Part shown: positions 12,397 through 50,568 of the stretch, piece after piece
How positions within the stretch are numbered: position 1 is the first letter of the stretch
Layout: every line of letters starts with the position of its first letter
NCBI GenBank assembly: GCA_021785655.1
Contig: JAJYET010000010.1
Span: 1 to 63,004 of the forward strand
DNA from: a bacterium
GTDB lineage: Bacteria > Chloroflexota > Dormibacteria > Aeolococcales > Bog-877
Length of the DNA stretch: 63,004 nucleotides
Direction: 5' to 3'
The notes under the pieces: generated by a model
The model's input: the letters and a program-made list of their open reading frames with translations, nothing else
Database searches by the model: none
Told to the model about the DNA's origin: nothing
Made by a program: the position numbers and the translations under genes

Positions 12397-13356
12397 ATGG
12401 AAGGCAGCGCCACCGCCACTGTTCGCCGCCTGGCGGACGCCGTCAGCACCGTGATCGTCGGCAACCGTTTGCAGATCGAGCTGTGCACGGTGGCCTGGCT
12501 GGTCGGGGGACACGTGCTGATCGAGGACGTGCCCGGGGTGGGGAAGACCATGTTGGCCAAGGCGCTGGCCCGGGCCACAGGCTGCGACTTCGACCGGGTG
12601 CAGTTCACCCCCGACCTCCTGCCGGGGGACATCACCGGGGCCAACATCTACCTCCCCTCACAGGGCACCTTCGAGTTCCGCAGGGGGCCGGTCTTCACCC
12701 AGGTCCTCCTTGCCGATGAGATCAACCGCGCCACCCCCAAGACCCAGGCGGCGCTGCTGGAGGCGATGGAGGAGCGCCAGGTCACCATCGACGGAACGAC
12801 CCACCAGCTCCCCGACCCCTTCGTGGTGCTGGCGACCCAGAACCCCATCGAGTACCAGGGCACCTTCCCGCTCCCCGAGGCCCAGATCGACCGCTTCCTG
12901 GTGCGAGTCTCCCTGGGGTACGCGGACCTAGAGGGCGAGCTGGAGATCCTCGACCGCTTCGGCCTCTCCTCGCCGCTGGCAGGTCTGGAGCCCGCCACCT
13001 CCCCCGACGAGCTGCCGGCCTTGCGGGCGGCGGTCGCGGAGGTCCACGTGGACCCGGAGCTCAAGTCCTATCTGGTGCGGCTGGTGCAGCGGACCCGCCA
13101 GCACCCCGACCTCGCCCTCGGAGCCAGTGCCCGGGCCAGCCTTGGGCTCCTTCGAGCCGGTCAGGCGTACGCCCTTCTGCGGGGACGGGACTACATGAGC
13201 CCGGACGACGTCAAGGTCCTGGCCCCCTCGGTGCTCACCCACCGGCTGGTGGTGCGGGCCAGCGCCGAGCTCCGCGGGGTGACCGCCGAGGCCATCCTCG
13301 AGGAGATCCTGCAGAGCGAGCCGGTCCCGGTGACGGGGCGGCGCGCCGCCAGCTGA
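12397..13356 (+). CDS. MoxR-family AAA+ ATPase
   Basis: A chaperone-like AAA+ ATPase of 319 aa. It shows Walker A in [17 protein letters not shown], Walker B in [20 protein letters not shown], sensor 1 in [20 protein letters not shown] and the arginine-rich [10 protein letters not shown]. The C-terminal lid domain ends at HRLVVR. MoxR proteins are almost always next to DUF58 proteins and transglutaminase-like membrane proteins, as here; they are thought to help mature or assemble partner proteins, often ones with a von Willebrand-like domain. The ATG at 12397 opens a three-gene unit. Confidence 0.93.
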
Positions 13357-13397
13357 CGCGGTGGCCGCCCGCCGGCGCCCCCTCTGAGGTTGGGCGG

Positions 13398-14594
13398 GTG
13401 GCCCGAGCTGCGCTCCTGGCGGTGGTGGTCGTGTGTGGCTTCTTCGCCTTCATCAACGGGGTGGCGCTGGCTTTCGTCCCGGTGTATGGGGCCGCCCTGG
13501 TGGTCCCCCTCTCGCTCGCCTGGAGCTGGTGGGCGGAGCGCCACCTGAGGCTCTCGCGGACGGCCCCCGACCGCCACCACATGGTCGGCGAGCTGTTCCC
13601 CCAGCAGTTCACGCTGCGCAACACCTCCTGGCTGCCGATCGCCATGGCCGAGGTGGTGGACCGCTCCGGGCTGCCCGGGGGCGAGGAGGCAGTGGCGGCC
13701 TCCCTCGGCCCCCACCAGCAGGCCTCGTGGGGCCAGGAGCTCCGGCTCACGACCAGGGGCCAGTACCGCCTGGGGCCGACGGAGGTGCGGGTCTCCGACC
13801 CCTTCGGGCTCTTCCCCCGCACGGTGAACTTCCCGGCCACCGGCTCAGTGCTGGTTTTCCCGCTCCTCTACCCCCTCTCCGACCTGGCCCTCGTGGGGGC
13901 GCGGGCGGGATTGGAGAGTGAGCGGGGCGGGCGCCCGCGCGACCTGCCCCCGAGCGCCTCGGGGGTCAGGGAGCATGACCCGGCCGATGGGATCAACCGC
14001 ATCCACTGGATCTCCACCGCCCGCCAGGGAAGGCTGATGAGCCGGACCTTTGACGCCGAGGAGGGAGCTGACCTCCTGGTGGTCCTGGACCTCCGCCGCG
14101 GGGTCCAGGCGGGCACCGGGCCAGAGAGCTCTCTGGAGTACGCGGTGACCATGGCGGCCTCGTTGGCCCATGCGGCCCTGCGGCGGGGCCGGGCGGTGGC
14201 TTTCCTGGGAACGGGGAGGTCCCTCACCTGGCTGCCCGCCGCCAGGGGGGATGCCCAGGACCAGTTGCTGCTGGAGAAGCTGGCCCTCTGCCAGGCCGAC
14301 GGGCAGGTGCCCCTGGGGCAGATCCTTCCCCGCCACCTGCCGGAGTGGCGTTCCCGGGGCAGCGTGGTGGTGGTGACCTCAGACCCCTCCGGGGAGTGGG
14401 TGGAGGCGGTAGCCGCCGGCTCGCAGCCGGGAAGGCGCGCGGTGGCCATTTTCGTGGACCCCATGAGCTTCGCCCCCCAGCCCACCCTCACCCGGATCCC
14501 CGCCCAGTGGCGGCTGGTGCTCGACTTCTGGGTCATCCGCCAGGGCGACGATCTCGCCCGGGTGGATCCCTCGTTCCGGCGCGCCGTTGGCTGA
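13398..14594 (+). CDS. DUF58 domain protein (MoxR partner)
   Basis: A 398-aa membrane-anchored protein. Two hydrophobic helices span about residues 5-45, followed by a beta-rich region (GELFPQQFTLRNTSWLPIA) and the DUF58 core, with the diagnostic EHDPADGINRIHWISTARQGRLMSR and the von Willebrand-like DLLVVLDLRRG. Start is GTG at 13398. The stop overlaps the next start by 8 bases. In this gene set DUF58, MoxR and the transglutaminase-like protein probably form one complex at the membrane; its substrate is unknown. Confidence 0.9.
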   Translation: MARAALLAVVVVCGFFAFINGVALAFVPVYGAALVVPLSLAWSWWAERHLRLSRTAPDRHHMVGELFPQQFTLRNTSWLPIAMAEVVDRSGLPGGEEAVAASLGPHQQASWGQELRLTTRGQYRLGPTEVRVSDPFGLFPRTVNFPATGSVLVFPLLYPLSDLALVGARAGLESERGGRPRDLPPSASGVREHDPADGINRIHWISTARQGRLMSRTFDAEEGADLLVVLDLRRGVQAGTGPESSLEYAVTMAASLAHAALRRGRAVAFLGTGRSLTWLPAARGDAQDQLLLEKLALCQADGQVPLGQILPRHLPEWRSRGSVVVVTSDPSGEWVEAVAAGSQPGRRAVAIFVDPMSFAPQPTLTRIPAQWRLVLDFWVIRQGDDLARVDPSFRRAVG

Positions 14595-37382: not shown

Positions 37383-38360
37383 TCAGGAGTCCAGGTGCGC
37401 TGGCAGTCCGAAGGCTCGGAAGATGGCCTCGCCCAGGAACACGTGCAGGACCGCGACCTTCCCACCGGACAGCTCCAGGACGTGCAATCCCCAGGGCCGG
37501 TGGCCCCCCTCTGGATCAACCCGGTACTGGCCGAAGGCGGGGCAGCCGTTGGCCGAGGTGGGCAGCATCCTGGAGCCCCGGCACTCCGCGCCCGGGCCCA
37601 GCATCCACCTGGCGATGTCCGCCGAGCCGCGGAGCCAGAGGGCGAAGGGCGGCATCATCTGGATGGCATCGTCGTGCATGAGCTGGACCAGGGCGTCGAT
37701 GTCGTAGGCCTCGAAGGCGCGCAGATAGCTTTCCGCCAGCTGGCGGTCCGCCGCCGAGACGGGCCTGCCCTCCAGGGCGGGCTGCGCTGCCAGCTTGGCT
37801 CGGGCGCGCTGCAGGGCGCTGTTCACCGCCGGTACCGAGGAGTCCAGAAGGGTCGCGATCTCCCGAGAGCGCCAGCCGAGGACGTCGCGGAGGATCAGCA
37901 CCGCCCGCTGCAGCGGGGCCAGCTGCTGCACGGCGGCGATGAAGGCCAGCCGGACCGTCTCCCGGTAAACCACCATCTCGGCCGGGTCCTCCTGGCCGGT
38001 GAGCAGGAGGGAGTCGGGCACCGGCTGCACCCAGGGGAAGTCGGTCATCATCTCGCCGAGGTAGGAGATCTCCGGGGGCGAGGATGGCCCGAGGTCCACC
38101 GGACGGGCCCTGCGGGGCTGGCTGCGCAGCAAATCCAGGCAGATGTTGGTGGCGATCCGGTAGAGCCAGGAGCGGACCGAGGACCGGCCCTCGAAGCCGG
38201 CGCGCGCCCTCCAGGCCCGGGCCAGGGTCTCCTGCACGGCGTCCTCGGCGTCGAAGACCGAGCCCAGCATCCGGTAGCAGAGGGCGGTGAGGCCGGGGCG
38301 ATGCGCCTCCAGCTCCTCCGCCGAAAGGGGGTACGGACTCTCCGAGAGCTGAACCTGCAC
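37383..38360 (-). CDS. ECF sigma factor with C-terminal SnoaL-like domain
   Basis: A 325-aa group IV sigma factor of the SigG/SigJ kind. Region 2 is at about residues 20-85 (CYRMLGSVFDAEDAVQETLA, SWLYRIATNICLDLL) and region 4 at about 150-200 (LQRAVLILRDVLGWRSREIA, PAVNSALQRARAKL). The rest is a SnoaL-like cone domain (YLRAFEAYDIDALVQLMHDD, MMPPFALWLRG). In such factors the C-terminal domain controls activity in place of an anti-sigma protein, and none is encoded here. The start is GTG. It diverges from the GNAT gene across 82 bases. Confidence 0.9.
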   Translation of the reverse strand: MQVQLSESPYPLSAEELEAHRPGLTALCYRMLGSVFDAEDAVQETLARAWRARAGFEGRSSVRSWLYRIATNICLDLLRSQPRRARPVDLGPSSPPEISYLGEMMTDFPWVQPVPDSLLLTGQEDPAEMVVYRETVRLAFIAAVQQLAPLQRAVLILRDVLGWRSREIATLLDSSVPAVNSALQRARAKLAAQPALEGRPVSAADRQLAESYLRAFEAYDIDALVQLMHDDAIQMMPPFALWLRGSADIARWMLGPGAECRGSRMLPTSANGCPAFGQYRVDPEGGHRPWGLHVLELSGGKVAVLHVFLGEAIFRAFGLPAHLDS

Positions 38361-41627: not shown

Positions 41628-44600
41628 ATGAGCGCTGCCAATCCCGGGGCCGGATCCAGCCGGGTCCTGTGCGTCTCCTGCGGGGAGGACATCCCCGCGA
41701 GCAGCCGTTTCTGTCCCCAGTGCGGGGTGGAATTGGGACGGACCTGTCCCGCCTGCGGAGTGCTGACCGGCACTCAGGCCCGCTTCTGCAGCTCCTGCGG
41801 GGCTCCGCTCCCAGCCGAACCGCCCCGGGCCCAGGAGGAGGTCGTCAGCCCGCCGGTCCGAGAGAAGGATGCGGCAGGACGGCGGGTGGTGACTGTGCTC
41901 TTCGCGGATCTGGTGGGTTTCACGCCCCTCGCCGAGGGCGAGGACCCCGAGGTCCTGCGGGAGTTCCTCAGCGGTTACTTCGATCTGGCCCGGACGGTTA
42001 TCACCCGAACCGGCGGGGTGGTCGAGAAATTCATCGGGGATGCGGTGATGGCGGTGTGGGGGGCCACCACCGCCCAGCAGGACGATGCCGAGCAGGCGGT
42101 CCGCGCCGGGCTGGAGCTGGTGACCGAGGTGGCCGCCTACGGGGAGCAGCGCGGGAGATCAGGACTCAGCACCAGGGTGGGAGTGGCGACCGGTGCCGTG
42201 GCGACCTGGTCTCGGCCCGGGGAGGGACTGGTGGTGGGAGACCGGGTGAACCTGGCCAGCCGGGTGCAGGCGGCGGCCGATCCCGGGACGGTGTTCGTGG
42301 ACGGCGCCACCCGGGAGGTCAGCCAGGCCGGCCTCGAGTACCTGGCCGCGGGGACGCACTCGCTCAAGGGGATATCCGAGCCCGTGAATCTGTGGCGGGC
42401 GGTCAGGGTTCTGGCGCGGCGTGGTGGCGCCGGCCGCTCCGGCGGCTGGGAAGCTCCCTTCGTCGGGCGAGCTCGCGAGCTGGCCTGGTGCAAGGACCTG
42501 TTCCACGATGTCTCCGACCGCCGCCGGGCGCGGCTGCTCTCGATCACCGGCCAGGCCGGGGTGGGCAAGTCCCGCCTCACCTGGGAGCTGGAGAAGTACC
42601 TGGACGGACTCCAGTCGGACACCTTCTGGCACCGCGGGCGCTGTCTGGCCTACGGCGACGGCGTGGCCTTCTGGCCACTGGCTGAGATGATGCGCACCCG
42701 CCTCGGGCTGCAGGACGAGGAGAACCTATCCCGCGAGGGGTTGGGAGCCGGGATCGATCGCGGGCTGGCGGCGCTGGCCCTGCCCGCCGGGGAACTTCCC
42801 GAACTCAGGGAGGCGCTGGCTGTGCTCCTGGGACTGGAGGGAGCCGAGGTGGAGCGCGCCCAGCTGTTCGCGAGTTGGCGGCGAATCTTCGAATTGCTGG
42901 GAGAGCGCGGCACGGTGGTCATGGTCATCGACGACTGTCAGTGGGCGGACAGCGGACTCCTCGAATTCGTGGAGTCGCTCCTGGACTGGTCGGCCAACGC
43001 TCCCCTGCTGATAATCACCCTGGCCCGCCCCGAGCTCGGCGAACGTCACCCCGGGTGGGGGACGGGACGGCCCACCGCCACCGCGCTGGCGCTCGAGCCG
43101 CTGGCCCCAGAAGAGATGTCGGAGCTGCTGGAGGGCCTGGTGCCGGGACTGCCCGCCCCGACGATCGCCAGGATCGTGGGGGCGGCCGAAGGCATCCCCC
43201 TGTATGCCGTGGAGCTCGTCCGGGCGCTGGCGGAGCGCGGCAGCCTCGCCCGCCGCGGGGAGCGCTACGCGCTGGTCGGAGAGGTCGGGGAGCTGCCTGT
43301 ACCCGCCTCCCTAACCGCGCTCCTGGCCGCTCGCCTGGACACCCTGAGCCCGAGGTCGCGAGCGCTGGCGAGCAGGCTCTCGGTGTTCGCCGGGGCGATC
43401 CCCCCGGCGGCGGCTCGGGAGGTCGCGGGGATGCCTGAGGCGGAGATGGAAGCGAGCCTGGCCGAGCTTCGCCGCGCGGAGGTGCTGGCGGTCCGGACCG
43501 ACGCCCTGGCCGCCGACCGGGGCCAGTTCGTCTTCACCCAGGGTCTGCTGCGGACGGCCGCCTACGACCGGCTGGGCCGGGGGGAGCGGCGGGCGGCCCA
43601 CCTCGACGCCGCCAGGTACCTGCAGAGCTCCCTTCCGGACTCCGGCCTCGAGGTGGCCGAGGCCGTCGCCATGCACCTCGAGGCTGCGCTCGAGGCCACG
43701 GCAGCCGGCGATGATGCCACTTCCCTGCGGGCGTCGGCAGCCGAGGCGTTCGCCAGGGCCGGTGCCAGAGCGCGTGCTGTGGGGGCCCCGGCGTCGTCCC
43801 AGCGCTCCTACCAGCGAGCGCGCCGGCTGGCCCCGGAGAGCCGGGATGCGATCACCTGGCAGATCCAGGCCGCGGAAGCCGCCGCCGACAGTGGCGACTA
43901 TGGGGCGGCTCTCGAGGAGGCTGCCAGCCCGGCGGCCCTGCTCGACCCCACCTCCCCCGAGGGCACGAGCCTCGCCATCCTCCGGACTCGAGCGCTCACC
44001 CGTCAGGGGCGCATCGACGAGGCGGTCGAGGAGCTGCGGCGAGCTCTGCAGGCGAGAGCGGGGCTCGACCCCGACGAACAGTCGGCGCGTTTGCACGGTG
44101 AGTTCGCCTCGCTTCTCTTCAGCGCCGGCCAGTTGGAGTCCGCCGACGCTGAGGCCGAGCTCGCCCTTGCCGAGGGCCAGGCCTTCCAGGTCCCCCTCGC
44201 GGTGGCCCGGGGGGCCGAGGCGAAGGGGTGGGTCCTGGCAGTAGATGGTCGGGTCGAGGAAGCGCTGTTGCACCTGGAGTGGTGCGCTCGGCTGATCACC
44301 ACCCATGGGTCCCTGCGCGATCAGGCGCGGGTGATCATGAATGTGGGGGACCTTGAGGCCCAGTACGACCGCCCAGGAGCCATGGGGCACTTCGAGTCCG
44401 CCGCCGCCCTCTGCCGCCGGGCCGGCGCTCGTGACCTCCTCCCCACCGCCGTGTCCAACCTGGCCTGGGTCTGGGGCCTCACCGGAAGATGGCGGGAGGC
44501 GGAGCAGCTCGCCTCCGAGCTGCTGGCGGACCTGTCCCCGGTGGTGGACCGCGCCGTCCTGCTCCTGAGCGTGGCGTTCATCCCGCTTTGGCGCGGGGAC

Positions 44601-45221
44601 GTCGAGATGGCGGCGCAGCAGCTCTCGGCCGCCATGCCACTTCCCTCCGGGATCGAGATCCAGCTGAAGGCGGAGGCGGACGGGATCGACTGCGGCATCA
44701 AGCTGGCGCAGGGCAGGCCGCGGGACGCGCTGGCGGTCGCGGAGCCGGTGCTCGCCTCCCACATCAACGCTCTCGGGATCAGCCATCAGGCAGTTCGCCA
44801 GCTCTGGACGGACGCGGTGGAGGCGGCGCTCCGGTGCGGCTCTCACGAGCTGGCCGGCCGCTGGCTCGCGGAGATGGCGAGCCGTCCGCCGGGGCTGGTA
44901 CCGCCCTACCTGACCAGCCAGCTGGCCCGGCTGGGCGGCATCAGCGCGGCGGAAAGCAAGGAATACCGTGAGGCAGATTCCCTTCTCGCCCGTGCGGCCG
45001 AGGGCTTTGAGAAGCTGGGCTACCCGTACTGGCGGGCCCGTGCCCAGCTCGACCGGGCCCGGGTGCTCGCCGCCCTCGGTGACGGCGGCGCGGCCCCCCT
45101 TTCGGCCGCGGCGGCGGCCACCTTCCAGGATCTAGGCGCCTCCGGCTGGCAGCACGAGGCACTCGGGGTAGCCGGAGACGCAAGCCTCGTGACGGCAGCT
45201 GGATCCCAAGGCCTGGACTGA
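41628..45221 (+). CDS. Class III adenylate/guanylate cyclase with zinc ribbons, AAA-type ATPase and TPR region
   Basis: A 1197-aa signalling protein. Residues about 10-60 hold zinc-ribbon cysteine pairs (CVSCGEDI, FCPQCGVE, CPACGVL, FCSSCGAPL). Residues about 85-260 are a class III cyclase: metal-binding Asp in VLFADLVGFTPLAEG and EKFIGDAVMAVWGA, and the Asn-Arg pair in VVGDRVNLASRVQAAAD. From about 275 to 620 there is an ATPase of the AAA/MalT type: P-loop in SITGQAGVGKSRLTWELE, Walker B in VVMVIDDCQWADSG. The rest is helical and Ala/Glu-rich, TPR-like. The catalytic residues look intact, so it should make cAMP (or cGMP) under control of the ATPase-TPR part. A cyclic-nucleotide-binding gene lies 2.8 kb downstream. 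Confidence 0.9.
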   Translation: MSAANPGAGSSRVLCVSCGEDIPASSRFCPQCGVELGRTCPACGVLTGTQARFCSSCGAPLPAEPPRAQEEVVSPPVREKDAAGRRVVTVLFADLVGFTPLAEGEDPEVLREFLSGYFDLARTVITRTGGVVEKFIGDAVMAVWGATTAQQDDAEQAVRAGLELVTEVAAYGEQRGRSGLSTRVGVATGAVATWSRPGEGLVVGDRVNLASRVQAAADPGTVFVDGATREVSQAGLEYLAAGTHSLKGISEPVNLWRAVRVLARRGGAGRSGGWEAPFVGRARELAWCKDLFHDVSDRRRARLLSITGQAGVGKSRLTWELEKYLDGLQSDTFWHRGRCLAYGDGVAFWPLAEMMRTRLGLQDEENLSREGLGAGIDRGLAALALPAGELPELREALAVLLGLEGAEVERAQLFASWRRIFELLGERGTVVMVIDDCQWADSGLLEFVESLLDWSANAPLLIITLARPELGERHPGWGTGRPTATALALEPLAPEEMSELLEGLVPGLPAPTIARIVGAAEGIPLYAVELVRALAERGSLARRGERYALVGEVGELPVPASLTALLAARLDTLSPRSRALASRLSVFAGAIPPAAAREVAGMPEAEMEASLAELRRAEVLAVRTDALAADRGQFVFTQGLLRTAAYDRLGRGERRAAHLDAARYLQSSLPDSGLEVAEAVAMHLEAALEATAAGDDATSLRASAAEAFARAGARARAVGAPASSQRSYQRARRLAPESRDAITWQIQAAEAAADSGDYGAALEEAASPAALLDPTSPEGTSLAILRTRALTRQGRIDEAVEELRRALQARAGLDPDEQSARLHGEFASLLFSAGQLESADAEAELALAEGQAFQVPLAVARGAEAKGWVLAVDGRVEEALLHLEWCARLITTHGSLRDQARVIMNVGDLEAQYDRPGAMGHFESAAALCRRAGARDLLPTAVSNLAWVWGLTGRWREAEQLASELLADLSPVVDRAVLLLSVAFIPLWRGDVEMAAQQLSAAMPLPSGIEIQLKAEADGIDCGIKLAQGRPRDALAVAEPVLASHINALGISHQAVRQLWTDAVEAALRCGSHELAGRWLAEMASRPPGLVPPYLTSQLARLGGISAAESKEYREADSLLARAAEGFEKLGYPYWRARAQLDRARVLAALGDGGAAPLSAAAAATFQDLGASGWQHEALGVAGDASLVTAAGSQGLD

Positions 45222-45555
45222 TTGGAAACCGCGGGGCTTCGGGCCCACCGCGGACCGCCCAGCCCCCCACCAGTCCAGCCCGGCTGCCCCCCTGGCCCCG
45301 GCCGGCGGGACTCAGCAGCCACCCTCTCCGGGAACCAGGCCACCGCTGCCGACCGCGGGCCGAGCTCCTCATGAATGCGCCGGGTGGGCGTACTCTTGCG
45401 CAGGGCGCCTGCCACGCCAGCGGAGCAGACGAGGCCGACCGGGTGCAGGGGCGCGTCCTATAGGCCGGGCCGCCTTGCGGTTCGCCTGCCAAGGACCCAT
45501 AATCCCGCCCCAGTGCCGCAGGAGCACCTCAGTCGAAGCGAAGGGGACCCACCCA
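45222..45555. other. Intergenic region of about 330 bases after the cyclase gene
   Basis: It holds a GC-rich hairpin just after the stop (CCGCGG repeated around 45231-45256) that may end transcription, and a candidate promoter at 45475-45503 for the next operon. No gene is seen. Confidence 0.45.
45475..45503 (+). promoter_or_regulatory. Candidate promoter of the split dikinase operon
   Basis: TTGCGG (45475-45480), a 17-base spacer and CATAAT (45498-45503, five of six matches) lie 52 bases before the GTG of the next gene. Pattern only. Confidence 0.35.
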
Positions 45556-47193
45556 GTGACGAATTCCGAAACTACCGACCTTCGCTTTGAACCGCCGGGC
45601 CCGGGATCCTGGGGACGGGATCCCGTTCACTTTCCCCGCCCCGCGACGCGCTACTGGGCGGAGACCCATCCCGCCTCCATGCGCTCCGGGACACGCTCTT
45701 TCACCAGCTACTACGGGATGCTGTTCGACGGCATGGAGGCGGCGTACGTGAACGGTTACGCCTACAACCGCACCCAGCCGCTGGACGACGGAGAGGTCCC
45801 CCGGCGCTTCCAACGAGCCGAGGAGGTGTTCCAAAACCGGCTCTGGCGAGAGCAGCTGCGGGAGTGGGACGAGGTCAGGAAGCCCGCCTCAATCGCCACT
45901 GATCGGGAGCTGCAGGCGGTCGATCCCGACGCCCTCTCGGACCTGGAGCTGGTCGCGCACCTGACCCGTTGCCGCGACCACCATGCGGCCATGCTTTCCC
46001 AGCACATGAGCTTCACCGGGGCGGCGATGCTGCCCACCGGGGACTTCCTGGTGCATGCCGCAGAGTGGACCGGGCTTCCAACCGCCCAACTGCTGGGTCT
46101 GCTCCGAGGGTCGGCGGAGGTCTCCGCCGGGGGATCCGCCGAGCTGGAGCGGCTCACCTCCACCCTCGCCGCGGACCCCGCAGCCCGGGAGCTCCTCCGC
46201 TCCGGCGATGACCCGGCTCGGGTGCTGGCGGCGCTGAGGGGCCTCCCCGGACCAGCCGGAGCCGCGGCTTCCGACTACCTGGATCTGGTCGGCTTCCGGC
46301 TCCTGGACGGCTTCGACATCTGCGAGCCATTTGCGTTGGAAATGCCCGACGCCCTGCTGCGAGCGATCCGGTTGGCCGTGGAGGCCGGGCCCCGGGAGGG
46401 GACGGACCTCGATAAGAAGGTCTCGGAGGTCCGGGACCGGGTCCCCGAGGAGCATCGCACCGAGTTCGACGAGCTGCTGGGAGAGGCGCGGCTGACCTAC
46501 CGGCTGCGGGACGAGCGCGGGATCTACAGCGACATCTGGGCATCGGGGCTGATGCGCCGGGCGGTTCTGGCGGGCGGTCGCCGGCTGGCTGCCCGGGGGC
46601 GCATCAACGACCCCGTCGACCTTATCGACGCCGGCTTCGAGGAGATGTGCTCGCTCCTCACCAATTCGGACGGCCCATCAGGGGACGAACTGAGGCGGCG
46701 CCGGGAGTACCGCACCACCCACGGCCCCAACGATGCGCCCCCGTTCCTGGGGGATCCGCCGTCAGCTCCTCCCGACCCCTCTGGCCTTCCACCCGCAATG
46801 GCCCGCCTCATGCGCGCCACCGGTTTTGCCATGGGCGAGATCTTCGGAGGCTCGACGGCTGAGCACGACGAATTCCTCCTCCGGGGGCTGGCGGCCAGCC
46901 AGGGGGTCTACGAGGGTCCAGCCAGATGCGTGGCGGGGCCCCAGGAGTTCAACCGGATCGCCCAGGGGGACGTCCTGGTCACCGAGTCGACCTCCGAGGC
47001 CTTCAACATCCTTCTACCGCTCCTGGGAGCGATCGTGACCGACCATGGGGGACTGCTCTCCCACTCCGCCATCGTGGCTCGCGAGTACGGCATTCCCGGG
47101 GTCGTGGGCACCCGCGAGGCGACCAGACGCATCACCGACGGGACCAGGGTGCGGGTCGACGGGGACCGCGGTGAGGTGACCGTCCTCGCGTGA
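45556..47193 (+). CDS. PEP-utilising (phosphohistidine) domain protein, half of a split PEP-synthase/rifampin-phosphotransferase-like enzyme
   Basis: A 545-aa protein. The last 90 residues are the mobile phosphohistidine domain: LAASQGVYEGPARCV, GDVLVTESTSEAF, and GGLLSHSAIVAREYGIPGVV with the catalytic His, then DGTRVRVDGDRGEVTVL. The first 440 residues are mostly helical (for example YYGMLFDGMEAAYVNGYAYN, LTRCRDHHAAMLSQHMSFTG) and compare best with the middle, substrate-binding part of rifampin phosphotransferase-like enzymes. GTG at 45556 with AAGGGG upstream is chosen over earlier in-frame starts. The matching ATP-grasp half is the next gene, coupled as GTGA. The substrate is not known. 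Confidence 0.85.
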   Translation: MTNSETTDLRFEPPGPGSWGRDPVHFPRPATRYWAETHPASMRSGTRSFTSYYGMLFDGMEAAYVNGYAYNRTQPLDDGEVPRRFQRAEEVFQNRLWREQLREWDEVRKPASIATDRELQAVDPDALSDLELVAHLTRCRDHHAAMLSQHMSFTGAAMLPTGDFLVHAAEWTGLPTAQLLGLLRGSAEVSAGGSAELERLTSTLAADPAARELLRSGDDPARVLAALRGLPGPAGAAASDYLDLVGFRLLDGFDICEPFALEMPDALLRAIRLAVEAGPREGTDLDKKVSEVRDRVPEEHRTEFDELLGEARLTYRLRDERGIYSDIWASGLMRRAVLAGGRRLAARGRINDPVDLIDAGFEEMCSLLTNSDGPSGDELRRRREYRTTHGPNDAPPFLGDPPSAPPDPSGLPPAMARLMRATGFAMGEIFGGSTAEHDEFLLRGLAASQGVYEGPARCVAGPQEFNRIAQGDVLVTESTSEAFNILLPLLGAIVTDHGGLLSHSAIVAREYGIPGVVGTREATRRITDGTRVRVDGDRGEVTVLA

Positions 47194-48008
47194 ACGAGGT
47201 CCTGCCCCTTGGCGAGGCGCGCGACCCCACGGTCTTCGGCTCCAAGGCCGTGGGGCTGGGCGAGGCCACCCGGGCCGGCCTGCCGGTCCCTCCCGGCATC
47301 GCCCTCTCCGGCCTGATTGTAGAGGCCGTGGCCAGCGGGGAGGAGGAGGCGGTGGCCACTGTGGTGCGGTTGGCGGAGCACCTGCCGCTCCCACTCGCCG
47401 TCCGTTCCTCCGCCGCGGACGAGGACGGCGCCCAGGCCAGCTTCGCTGGCCAACACCTGACCCTCCTCAATGTCCCATCCCCTTCCGAGCTGCCCTCGGC
47501 GGTGCGGGACATCTGGTGGTCGGCCAACTCGGACTCCGCGATAACCTACCGACAGCGGGTCGGCCTCTTCACCCGACCCAGCGTGGGAGTCGTGGTGCAG
47601 TCGCTGCTCAACCCGGACGTCGCCGGAGTCATGTTCACCCAGAACCCCATGAACGGAGCGGATGAGCGGGTCATCGAAGGCAGTTGGGGGCTCGGCGAGG
47701 CCGTGGTCGCCGGGACTGTGATCCCAGACCACTTTCGCGTCGACCGGGAGGGCCGGACGCTGGAGCGCATTCCCGGGTTTAAGCAGGTGGCGATCCGCGC
47801 CCTCCCGGGCGGCGGTACTGTTGAGGAGGCGGTCCCGGCCGGCGATGTCGAGCGGCTCTGCCTTAACGACGGCCAGCTGAAGATGCTGAGCGAGCTGGCG
47901 CTTCGGTGTGAGCAGGTGTACGGGCCGGCCCGCGACATCGAATGGGCCATCGCCGACGGGACCCTGTCTCTGCTGCAGTGCCGAGCGGTCACCCGGTCAG
48001 GGCGCTAG
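47190..48008 (+). CDS. PEP/pyruvate-binding ATP-grasp domain protein (other half of split dikinase)
   Basis: A 272-aa protein equal to the N-terminal ATP-grasp part of PEP synthase, PPDK and rifampin phosphotransferase: GSKAVGLGEATRAGLPVPPG, LAVRSSAADEDGAQASFAGQ, VGVVVQSLLNPDVAGVMFTQ, VIEGSWGLGEAVVAGTVIPD and the closing DIEWAIADGTLSLLQCR. These enzymes move the beta-phosphate of ATP to a His on the mobile domain, here made by the previous gene. Order is inverted: in single-chain enzymes the ATP-grasp comes first. The GTG start overlaps the upstream stop. A cyclic-nucleotide-binding gene follows after 10 bases. Confidence 0.92.
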   Translation: MNEVLPLGEARDPTVFGSKAVGLGEATRAGLPVPPGIALSGLIVEAVASGEEEAVATVVRLAEHLPLPLAVRSSAADEDGAQASFAGQHLTLLNVPSPSELPSAVRDIWWSANSDSAITYRQRVGLFTRPSVGVVVQSLLNPDVAGVMFTQNPMNGADERVIEGSWGLGEAVVAGTVIPDHFRVDREGRTLERIPGFKQVAIRALPGGGTVEEAVPAGDVERLCLNDGQLKMLSELALRCEQVYGPARDIEWAIADGTLSLLQCRAVTRSGR

Positions 48009-48018
48009 GTCCAGGGCG

Positions 48019-48429
48019 ATGGCCGGCGCTCCGATCGAGCTCCTGCAGCGGGTGCCCCTGTTCGCGGAGCTGGATCGCGGCGAGCTGGAGCAGGTGGCCC
48101 GGCTCTTCAAGGAGCGCCGCTTCTCGCGGGGCGAGACGGTGGTCATGGAGGGGTCGGGAGGCGCCGCCTTCTTCGTCATCGCCGCCGGGGAGGCCACGGT
48201 GGCGGTCGGTGACGCCCAGCGCCCGCCCCTCCAAGCCGGTGATTACTTCGGTGAGATCGCGCTGATCGACGAGGGCAGACGTTCGGCGACGATCACGGCT
48301 GCCAGCGACCTGCTCTGCTACGGGCTCACCTTCTGGGAGTTCCGACCGCTGGTGGAGGGGAGTGGGGTCATCGCCTGGAAGCTGCTTCAGTCCCTGGCGA
48401 AGAAACTCAGGGCGGCTCAGGCGGACTAG
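48019..48429 (+). CDS. Single-domain cyclic-nucleotide-binding protein with intact cassette
   Basis: A 136-aa Crp-like domain with no DNA-binding helix. It reads LLQRVPLFAELDRGELEQVA, GETVVMEGSGGAAFFVIAAG and a canonical phosphate-binding cassette YFGEIALIDEGRRSATITA, with the Glu that contacts ribose and the Arg that contacts the cyclic phosphate. So it most likely binds cAMP or cGMP. Its position directly after the two dikinase halves and downstream of a class III cyclase suggests that it is a cAMP-responsive subunit of the split enzyme. Confidence 0.88.
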   Translation: MAGAPIELLQRVPLFAELDRGELEQVARLFKERRFSRGETVVMEGSGGAAFFVIAAGEATVAVGDAQRPPLQAGDYFGEIALIDEGRRSATITAASDLLCYGLTFWEFRPLVEGSGVIAWKLLQSLAKKLRAAQAD

Positions 48430-49464: not shown

Positions 49465-50565
49465 CTATCCGCCGGGGAACAGCAGAACCGGCTTCACAGT
49501 ATCGCCACGCAGCGAATCCTCGATCGCCTCATTGACCTTTTCGAAGGGATAGTGGCGCACCAGGCGCTCGAAGGGAAAGCTCCCTGCCTCGTGCAACTTG
49601 AGCAGTCGCTGGAGCCCCAGGGTCCCCGAGGAGTCTCCCTGGATGATCCCTCGGACGGACTTGCCACCCACCATGAGTGACCCGAGGGGCACACCAGGCT
49701 CTCCGCCCCCACCGGCGACTCCCAGCTGGCCGAGCACGGCGAGTGCCGCTACCGCGGCCAGCTGCAGTTCGCCCGAGCCAGTGGTGTCGAGAATCGCATC
49801 GCACCCGCCGTCGCTGATGGCGCGCAGGGTGTGGGCCAGGTCGGGGGTGAAGTCGGTGTCGACGAGATGGGTCGCCCCGAGCGCTCTCGCGTGCTCGAGC
49901 CGCGCCCCATTCTTGTCGACGGCGACGATGGTGCTCGCTCCCGCCGCCCGGGCGGCCATGACCGCTGCCAGCCCCACCGTGCCCGTCCCCATCACCGCCA
50001 GGCTGCGCCCTGGGCCGACCGGGAGGACCTGGAGAACAGCCCCGACTCCGGTGACCATGCCACAGGTGGTGGCGGCGAACAGCTGGAGAGGGACGTCGTC
50101 ACCCACCCTGAGCGCTTGGCGCTCGCTGGCCAGCGCATAGGTCGCGAAGGCCGACTGCCCGAAGAACGAAGCCCGGATGTCTTCGCTGCCCATTCGCGCC
50201 CGCGTCGAGCCATCGGGGCGGACCGCTCCGAAGGTCCGCCGGGGGCCCTCCTCGCAGTAGGAGGTCCGACCAGCTCGGCAGCGGTCACAGCGACCACAGA
50301 AGTCAGACACCAAGAGCACGCGGTCCCCCGGTACCAGACCGCGCACCGTGCGACCGACCTCGACGATCGTGCCGGCCCCCTCGTGGCCGAGAACGATGGG
50401 GAAGACGACCGACCCATAGCCGTCGCGAGCCTTGGCGTCCGTGTGGCACACGCCACAGGCCGCCATCCTGATCAGGATCTCATCGTCTCGAGGGTCGTCG
50501 AGCTCAATCTCCTCCAGAGAGAGTGGTCCTCCGCGTTCGCGGGCCACCGCGGCCACAGCTCGCAC
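49465..50565 (-). CDS. Zinc-dependent alcohol dehydrogenase (MDR family)
   Basis: A 366-aa medium-chain dehydrogenase. Catalytic zinc ligands: Cys in AACGVCHTDAKARDG and His-Glu in VLGHEGAGTIVEVG. Structural zinc cysteines: FCGRCDRCRAGRTSYCEEG. The Rossmann motif is SLAVMGTGTVGLAAVMAARA followed by VAVDKNGARLEHARALGATH. It resembles aryl- or benzyl-alcohol dehydrogenases. A GTG at 50565 with GGAGGAGCGGGAG upstream is likely; the TTG one codon earlier is also possible. It stands alone in a gene-poor stretch. Confidence 0.92.
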   Translation of the reverse strand: MRAVAAVARERGGPLSLEEIELDDPRDDEILIRMAACGVCHTDAKARDGYGSVVFPIVLGHEGAGTIVEVGRTVRGLVPGDRVLLVSDFCGRCDRCRAGRTSYCEEGPRRTFGAVRPDGSTRARMGSEDIRASFFGQSAFATYALASERQALRVGDDVPLQLFAATTCGMVTGVGAVLQVLPVGPGRSLAVMGTGTVGLAAVMAARAAGASTIVAVDKNGARLEHARALGATHLVDTDFTPDLAHTLRAISDGGCDAILDTTGSGELQLAAVAALAVLGQLGVAGGGGEPGVPLGSLMVGGKSVRGIIQGDSSGTLGLQRLLKLHEAGSFPFERLVRHYPFEKVNEAIEDSLRGDTVKPVLLFPGG

Positions 50566-50568
50566 CAA

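Follow-up and report, generated by a model that had tools for sequence, protein, structure and literature searches.

Split phosphohistidine enzymes, in which the gene for a substrate-binding and swivel protein lies before the gene for a separate ATP-grasp protein, have been described as HpeHI, CreHI, and PpsAB (JBC 2025, PMC12167813). We analyzed a locus of the same layout that has an additional cyclic-nucleotide-binding component. It lies on a stretch of 63,004 nucleotides (the window), which is a single 63-kb contig (C52; GenBank JAJYET010000010.1) and part of a 2.3-Mb draft genome from the Dormibacteria. We estimate a probability of roughly 60% that genes B and C of this locus encode a split small-molecule dikinase and that the product of gene D gates its ATP-grasp half through a cyclic nucleotide, probably cyclic AMP (cAMP), likely made by the cyclase encoded by gene A. 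This reading is backed by gene order, a fusion of C to D, homology, and conserved catalytic and ligand-contact residues, all of which were observed directly.

The likeness to HpeHI, CreHI, and PpsAB extends to the His motif, the fold, and the lack of a phosphoenolpyruvate (PEP)-binding barrel. The first-pass annotation of this DNA had stated that it knew of no described system of this form, which does not hold for the split itself, with the His protein first and the ATP-grasp protein second (PMC12167813). There are also differences from HpeHI. C has 272 amino acids compared with 387 in the HpeI chain, with about 50 fewer residues between the Lys loop and RSSA; D is a third component; and no conserved aromatic catabolic cluster lies alongside. 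Phenylphosphate synthase reportedly has a third, stimulating CBS-domain protein (work by Schmeling in 2004 is said to have found it), which would be a precedent, although with a different fold, for a small third subunit that regulates the enzyme. Rifampin phosphotransferase (RPH) shares all three domains and likely the swiveling His mechanism, but it is a single chain with ATP-grasp first, whereas the enzyme here is split. We know of no cyclic-nucleotide domain in RPH. Pycsar systems also encode a cyclase together with a protein that has a cyclic nucleotide monophosphate (cNMP)-binding domain. However, there is no TIR or membrane effector here, and A is a cyclase with additional AAA/TPR and zinc-ribbon parts. 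In function, the closest known case of a bacterial enzyme that carries a cNMP domain is the acetyltransferase Pat (Rv0998, MSMEG_5458), which has this domain fused to it and is switched by cAMP (PMC5861322). Pat is a GNAT enzyme that modifies proteins, whereas here the domain accompanies the ATP-grasp half of a predicted small-molecule dikinase. The main text of the HpeHI paper (PMC12167813) never uses the word "cyclic," and we found no publication in the open-licence PMC literature on a cNMP-gated enzyme of this kind. The genes and their main features are as follows.

41628..45221, + strand: gene A, 1197 amino acids; class III nucleotide cyclase with an N-terminal double zinc ribbon, an AAA ATPase, and TPR-like helices
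41886..42371, + strand: cyclase catalytic domain of A (Pfam), with metal Asp94 and Asp138, Lys134, and the NLASR motif (residue roles presumed)
42456..43016, + strand: AAA_16 ATPase domain of A (Pfam)
45556..47193, + strand: gene B, 545 amino acids, GTG start; HpeH-like substrate-binding plus swivel (phosphohistidine) protein
46960..47172, + strand: PEP-utilizers mobile (swivel) domain of B (Pfam)
47062..47064, + strand: codon of His503, the predicted phospho-acceptor, in TDHGGLLSH, which fits T/SXXGGXXXH (motif from PMC12167813)
47190..48008, + strand: gene C, 272 amino acids, GTG start; compact ATP-grasp protein (PPDK_N), HpeI-like
48019..48429, + strand: gene D, 136 amino acids; lone cyclic-nucleotide-binding domain
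48247..48291, + strand: phosphate-binding cassette of D, FGEIALIDEGRRSAT, with Glu79 and Arg88

All four genes noticed in the first-pass annotation were confirmed in position, as was the tight spacing of the last three: B runs 4 bases into C, and 10 bases separate C from D. The gap between A and B is 334 bases. The first listed start of B is a TTG at 45475, 27 codons upstream of the GTG at 45556, but we took the GTG as the start because 545-amino-acid homologues begin there. The ratio of nonsynonymous to synonymous substitution rates (dN/dS) is 0.06 to 0.22 for the four genes against two relatives, or three for D (0.19 against L012, 0.06 against L035, and 0.12 against L013). All four therefore look to be under purifying selection, which, like the many database matches of B, speaks against a chance find.

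The first-pass annotation had proposed a search for the three-gene set in other genomes, and B, C, and D do occur together. A genome collection was searched with one alignment of B homologues, which gave the best 80 loci of more, and further loci came from additional genome searches. Loci taken from L012 to L099 were scored in three bands of B score (37, 32, and 16 loci). The fragments L077 and L093, and L087, which has no C, stayed outside the scoring; L067 was assigned by hand to the top band, since its B is split over two frames; and two of the 37 top-band loci (L013 and L014) come from one genome. D followed C in 35/37 loci of the top band, where identity to B is about 60% or more, and the contigs of the other two stop 1 to 2 bases past the C match. 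By contrast, D followed C in 0/32 loci of the middle band and 0/16 of the lowest. In 20 of the 35 loci with D, C and D were one open frame with a short linker. Because D follows C so regularly and is so often fused to it, the data support B-C-D as one predicted system, with D as the new component of a split enzyme already known.

The protein database and a tree of B agree with this grouping. When the C-D fusion was the query, all 120 matches listed of 7609 carried both PF01326 and PF00027, in a ranking that puts fused proteins first by design. For the tree of B, built from 86 rows by a quick method, 18 named loci (duplicates, fragments, and broken frames) and rows scoring below 300 were excluded. 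The loci with D grouped together as a clade with a Shimodaira-Hasegawa-like approximate likelihood ratio test (SH-aLRT) value of 99, and the fused state needed six changes, at least three of them forced. According to record titles and tree labels, the D clade spans Dormibacterota, Actinomycetota, Chloroflexota, Cyanobacteriota, Pseudomonadota, Acidobacteriota, and Verrucomicrobiota; many of these records are contigs of metagenome-assembled genomes, and individual phylum labels may be wrong. The B of L035 is 81% identical to that of the window; its genome (G060) is the same as G001 in the genus of the window, as judged by identical cyclase coordinates. Members were few in wider genome groups, at 5/299 genomes with an E value of 1e-100, 4/395 and 8/399 with 1e-170, and 3/151 with 1e-60; in the 299-, 395-, and 399-genome searches, at most three to four candidates were scored per genome. 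Therefore, the system appears to be patchy. A plasmid collection held one relative that spans at least 80% of B, with 45% identity, and the other matches listed were to the swivel domain. L093 (G001:C51:52229-52841) is a partial or decayed second copy of B, with two N-terminal pieces of 57 to 64% identity in different frames.

B had been read as a phosphohistidine-domain protein and C as a separate ATP-grasp protein, and both assignments agree with domain matches and conserved motif residues. With Pfam E values up to 0.01, B matched only PEP-utilizers (PF00391) and C only PPDK_N (PF01326), and the protein database lists an additional family, PF27448, for homologues of B. The ATP-grasp domain and the substrate-binding plus swivel domains sit on two proteins, C and B, respectively. 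B matched 5154 database proteins (E ≤ 0.001), part of them outside the D clade, and the 120 matches listed were at least 68% identical to it. The phospho-accepting His of B was invariant in 24/24 and 36/36 aligned rows. The ATP-grasp site of C, aligned to HpeI, was complete (K19, R72, E251, Q263, and R265), and these residues were invariant across 16/16 fused C-D homologues. We presume that the Lys, Arg, Glu, Gln, and Arg have the functions usually assigned to them in ATP-grasp sites. A structure model gave the substrate domain of B an RPH-type fold and not a PEP/pyruvate barrel, and from this confident model, B is predicted to fold like the core of RPH. W19, H25, R84, W104, H150, and E363 of this domain did not vary across 36 rows with identities as low as 27%, and they are possible active-site residues.

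D was confirmed as a lone cyclic-nucleotide-binding domain with a canonical cassette. Its Pfam match is cNMP_binding (PF00027), besides a CDC48_2 match under the cut-off. The Glu and Arg of the cassette were retained in 35/35 D sequences, and FGE[ILMV]AL[ILV]D.G.R.AT fits 34/35; the other, L098, has a one-residue shift with the same Glu and Arg. In known cyclic-nucleotide receptors, the Glu holds the ribose and the Arg holds the cyclic phosphate. The best relatives of D are cAMP or cGMP receptors, as are the majority of the relatives listed when the D part was compared. The best NCBIfam match of D was Pat, far under the cut-off (33.9 versus 460 bits). The predicted ligand of D is thus a cyclic nucleotide, probably cAMP. 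The window genome has four PF00027 matches in total, and a second cNMP protein is encoded on the same contig at 27263-28018 (251 amino acids, PF00027 at residues 131 to 192).

The description of A as a class III cyclase with intact metal and Asn-Arg motifs, zinc ribbons, an AAA domain, and TPR-like helices also held in Pfam and in an alignment. With E values up to 0.01, A matched a double zinc ribbon (residues 15 to 58), Guanylate_cyc (87 to 248), and AAA_16 (277 to 463), together with a TPR match under the curated cut-off. Both metal Asp residues and the Asn and Arg of a class III active site are present, in roles that we assume from this family. Class III cyclases with adenylyl specificity have Lys at one base-selecting position and Asp or Thr at the other. 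A has Lys134 at the first, which suggests adenylyl specificity. The solved relatives 2W01 and 6FHT differ at the position matching Lys134 (Glu versus Lys), which we take to be a switch from guanylyl to adenylyl.

Is A the source of the signal? In the genus of the window, full-length B is present in 6/8 genomes, at seven loci (two in G003), and an A-type cyclase adjoins B in 7/7. The cyclase domain is seen in five of the seven, and the other two (G003:C16 and G006:C135) show only the 3' part of A at contig ends. The two genomes that have no full-length B, G004 and G007, also have no A-type cyclase and have kept only another, double-domain cyclase. In G001, the cyclase is 1.1 kb downstream of the trio and not upstream as in the window, and when 20 kb were compared, only the trio and the cyclase of this 8973-base contig aligned to the window. 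This means that the link survived rearrangement or that the set moved as a cassette. G003 apparently has two cyclase-trio cassettes on separate contigs (L102 on C16 and L103 on C1), which are either paralogues or a binning mix.

Co-occurrence with a neighboring cyclase, which the first reading had proposed to test, is thus complete for full-length B in the genus, and elsewhere it was seen less often. Beyond the genus, L028, L029 (on both sides), and L032 (divergent) have a cyclase no more than 3 kb from the trio, which is 3/27 genomes compared with 0.37 expected from their cyclase counts (P ~0.005). Within 10 kb, it is 4/27 compared with 0.96 expected (P ~0.013). This test was post hoc, and double-domain genes are among the cyclases that it counts. 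Loci without D had no cyclase matches, which is a hint only, given that the profile was built from D-clade loci, and a sequence-pattern search found fewer cyclases than the hidden Markov model did. In L029 (Variovorax sp. YR216), a gene right after the trio (13135-14457) encodes a cyclase fused to globin-like and 2Fe-2S ferredoxin domains, which suggests that it senses a redox or gas cue.

The most durable alternative keeps the trio as described but makes A incidental, with D reading the general cAMP pool of other cyclases; we consider it a real possibility that falls short of the gated dikinase with A as its source. The 28 genomes searched carry 0 to 26 cyclase matches each, and 23/27 outside the genus have none within 10 kb of the trio in the available sequence, part of which is short contigs. 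A dedicated cyclase is therefore not a general part of the system; it is a partner in some lineages and not obligatory. However, genus genomes have only two to four cyclase matches each, A is kept beside B at every full-length locus even after the order changed in G001, and both genomes without B are also without A.

Apart from the post hoc design of the linkage test and the many D-clade genomes with no cyclase nearby, several other observations weigh against a gated dikinase with its own cyclase. No cyclase was seen near the trio in L021 and L094 to L098, which were outside the 27-genome test, and the partial B copy of G001 is on its own contig (C51) without a cyclase match. Among the linked loci, C is in two frames in L032, and the cyclase of L028 is a fragment at a contig end. 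The trio-side cyclases are not one family; the three compared have 27 to 32% identity to A across aligned stretches of 169 to 622 residues, and the upstream one of L029 has Gln at the position equivalent to Lys134. The product of A is itself uncertain, as its second base-selecting position is Leu (in GLVVGD) and not the usual Asp or Thr. A scan found no promoter, and no terminator in the A-B gap, and was uninformative about an A-B operon; the sole terminator-like site was inside B, and shuffled sequence averages 1.8 such sites. The broken frames of B in L067 and of C in L032, where they overlap, are either assembly errors or decay. The structure model of the C-D fusion is moderate (mean predicted local distance difference test score, 72.5; predicted template modeling score, 0.57) and cannot show a regulatory interface. 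Lastly, gene clustering up to 10 kb on each side found no informative conserved neighbor family in the D clade.

In bacteria, most known effects of cAMP run through transcription factors, and few enzymes, Pat among them, are known to be controlled by it directly. In the mechanism that we favor, a cue would reach A through its AAA/TPR part and A would make cAMP. cAMP-bound D would then release or close the ATP-grasp lobes of C, which would switch the enzyme on or off. C would present ATP to residue His503 in B, whose swivel domain would then move the beta-phosphate to a small hydroxylated acceptor, most likely a phenol, in the helical domain of B, with a phosphate ester, AMP, and phosphate as the products. 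Here, we infer the identity of the ligand, the direction of control, the substrate, and A as the signal source. HpeH and HpeI form no stable complex in solution (PMC12167813), which makes the ATP-grasp half a plausible rate-setting control point.

The wider proposal, that these proteins are a widespread class of dikinase switched directly by a cyclic nucleotide without transcription and that a dedicated cyclase travels along in some lineages, seems to us evenly poised. If true, this dikinase family of environmental bacteria would be a cAMP effector of a new kind, one that acts on small molecules. The locus would couple a second messenger to phosphorylation of a metabolite or xenobiotic as a complete signal-to-chemistry cassette. 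As a compact system of one C-D fusion and one B, it would allow both signal and substrate to be screened in vitro. The HpeHI paper expected homologues in other processes (PMC12167813), and the B-C-D clade is a candidate group for these.

The acceptor is probably a small hydroxylated, phenolic molecule, as judged by analogy from the gene clusters of relatives and from the fold. The distant B-C group (L081, L083 to L086, and L088 to L091) has 28 to 31% identity and no D. Its clusters contain a carboxyltransferase (nine loci, including L087), a biotin carboxylase (eight), and a HAD phosphatase (eight), with one representative of each scanned. These functions also occur in the Hpe pathway, as parts of PMC9618137 describe, and the related phenylphosphoamidate synthase of Desulfatiglans acts on aniline and phenol according to sections of PMC7500099.

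A different substrate follows if the enzyme is an antibiotic- or xenobiotic-inactivating phosphotransferase under cyclic-nucleotide control, RPH-like and not a catabolic phenol kinase. This would fit the RPH-type fold predicted for B and the neighbors of the middle band. Among middle-band loci with at least 600 bases past C, the next gene clustered as a major facilitator superfamily (MFS) transporter in 23/30, and the three proteins scanned were closest to DHA2/EmrB-type efflux, though just under the cut-off of the EmrB model. Five of the MFS-band loci and L079 have a TetR-like family upstream of B (one of six scanned), and in the D clade, a gene upstream of B in L034 encodes an MFS protein that includes a cNMP domain. 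However, L034 was the only D-clade locus with a transporter adjoining the trio among the ten neighbors scanned, the others having been judged by name or clustering; other members of the MFS cluster are 5 to 9 kb away in L017, L022, and L032. Export of a phosphorylated product, whatever the metabolism, is another possible role of efflux genes, and the more distant B-C group, which shares the two-gene layout, is Hpe-like. We regard antibiotic or xenobiotic inactivation as rather unlikely. The RPH label itself was dropped: B and C score far under the Rph model cut-offs, and the chain is split and not single with ATP-grasp first and the His domain last. The fold model was retained.

The barrel of D might instead sense the aromatic substrate or product and not a cyclic nucleotide. 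D accompanies an enzyme that likely acts on phenols, and ligand change is known in the superfamily, as CprK, a CRP-family regulator, senses chlorophenols. Against this, the cassette Glu and Arg are kept throughout and the closest relatives are mostly cAMP/cGMP receptors, which makes an aromatic ligand improbable. An anti-phage role, with A and D as a Pycsar-like pair and the dikinase as effector, is harder still to credit. A PADLOC defence-model scan of seven proteins gave superfamily-level matches of A to PycC (best, 55.6 bits) and of D to TIR/PycTIR effectors (best, 39.8 bits), but these span only the shared cyclase and cNMP domains, D has no TIR or membrane part, and B and C match no defence model. 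Least credible is a split PEP synthase or pyruvate phosphate dikinase of central metabolism, despite automatic names such as "pyruvate,water dikinase" and the swivel and ATP-grasp matches, since Pfam found no PEP/pyruvate-binding barrel in B or C and sequence alignment of these enzymes with B is confined to the swivel domain, while structural alignment lies mainly there; this identity was dropped. From the earlier proposal of a cAMP-gated dikinase or antibiotic-modifying enzyme, the gated dikinase stands as the best reading, and its PEP synthase form does not.

Some neighboring genes are of separate interest. Members of a zinc-alcohol-dehydrogenase-like family are present at varied places and distances in five D loci (L012 and L013, both of the genus, and L021, L032, and L067), and an ABC-ATPase-like family is also present in five; both are large superfamilies. 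In the window, a zinc-dependent alcohol dehydrogenase gene lies downstream of D at 49465-50568. In the sister group L046 to L076, an MFS transporter gene is third in 24 loci, which makes a kinase-plus-transporter set. Four loci have another cNMP-domain gene no more than 1 kb upstream of B. Two are divergent: a patatin-like phospholipase with two cNMP domains (L025:6393-8624, - strand) and an MFS transporter with a C-terminal cNMP domain (L034:7877-9613, - strand), possibly a cNMP-gated transporter beside a cNMP-gated kinase. The upstream proteins of L040 and L041 have one cNMP domain near the C terminus (L040 scanned by Pfam). Upstream of A in the window, an ECF-type sigma factor with a C-terminal SnoaL-like domain is encoded at 37383-38360 on the - strand.

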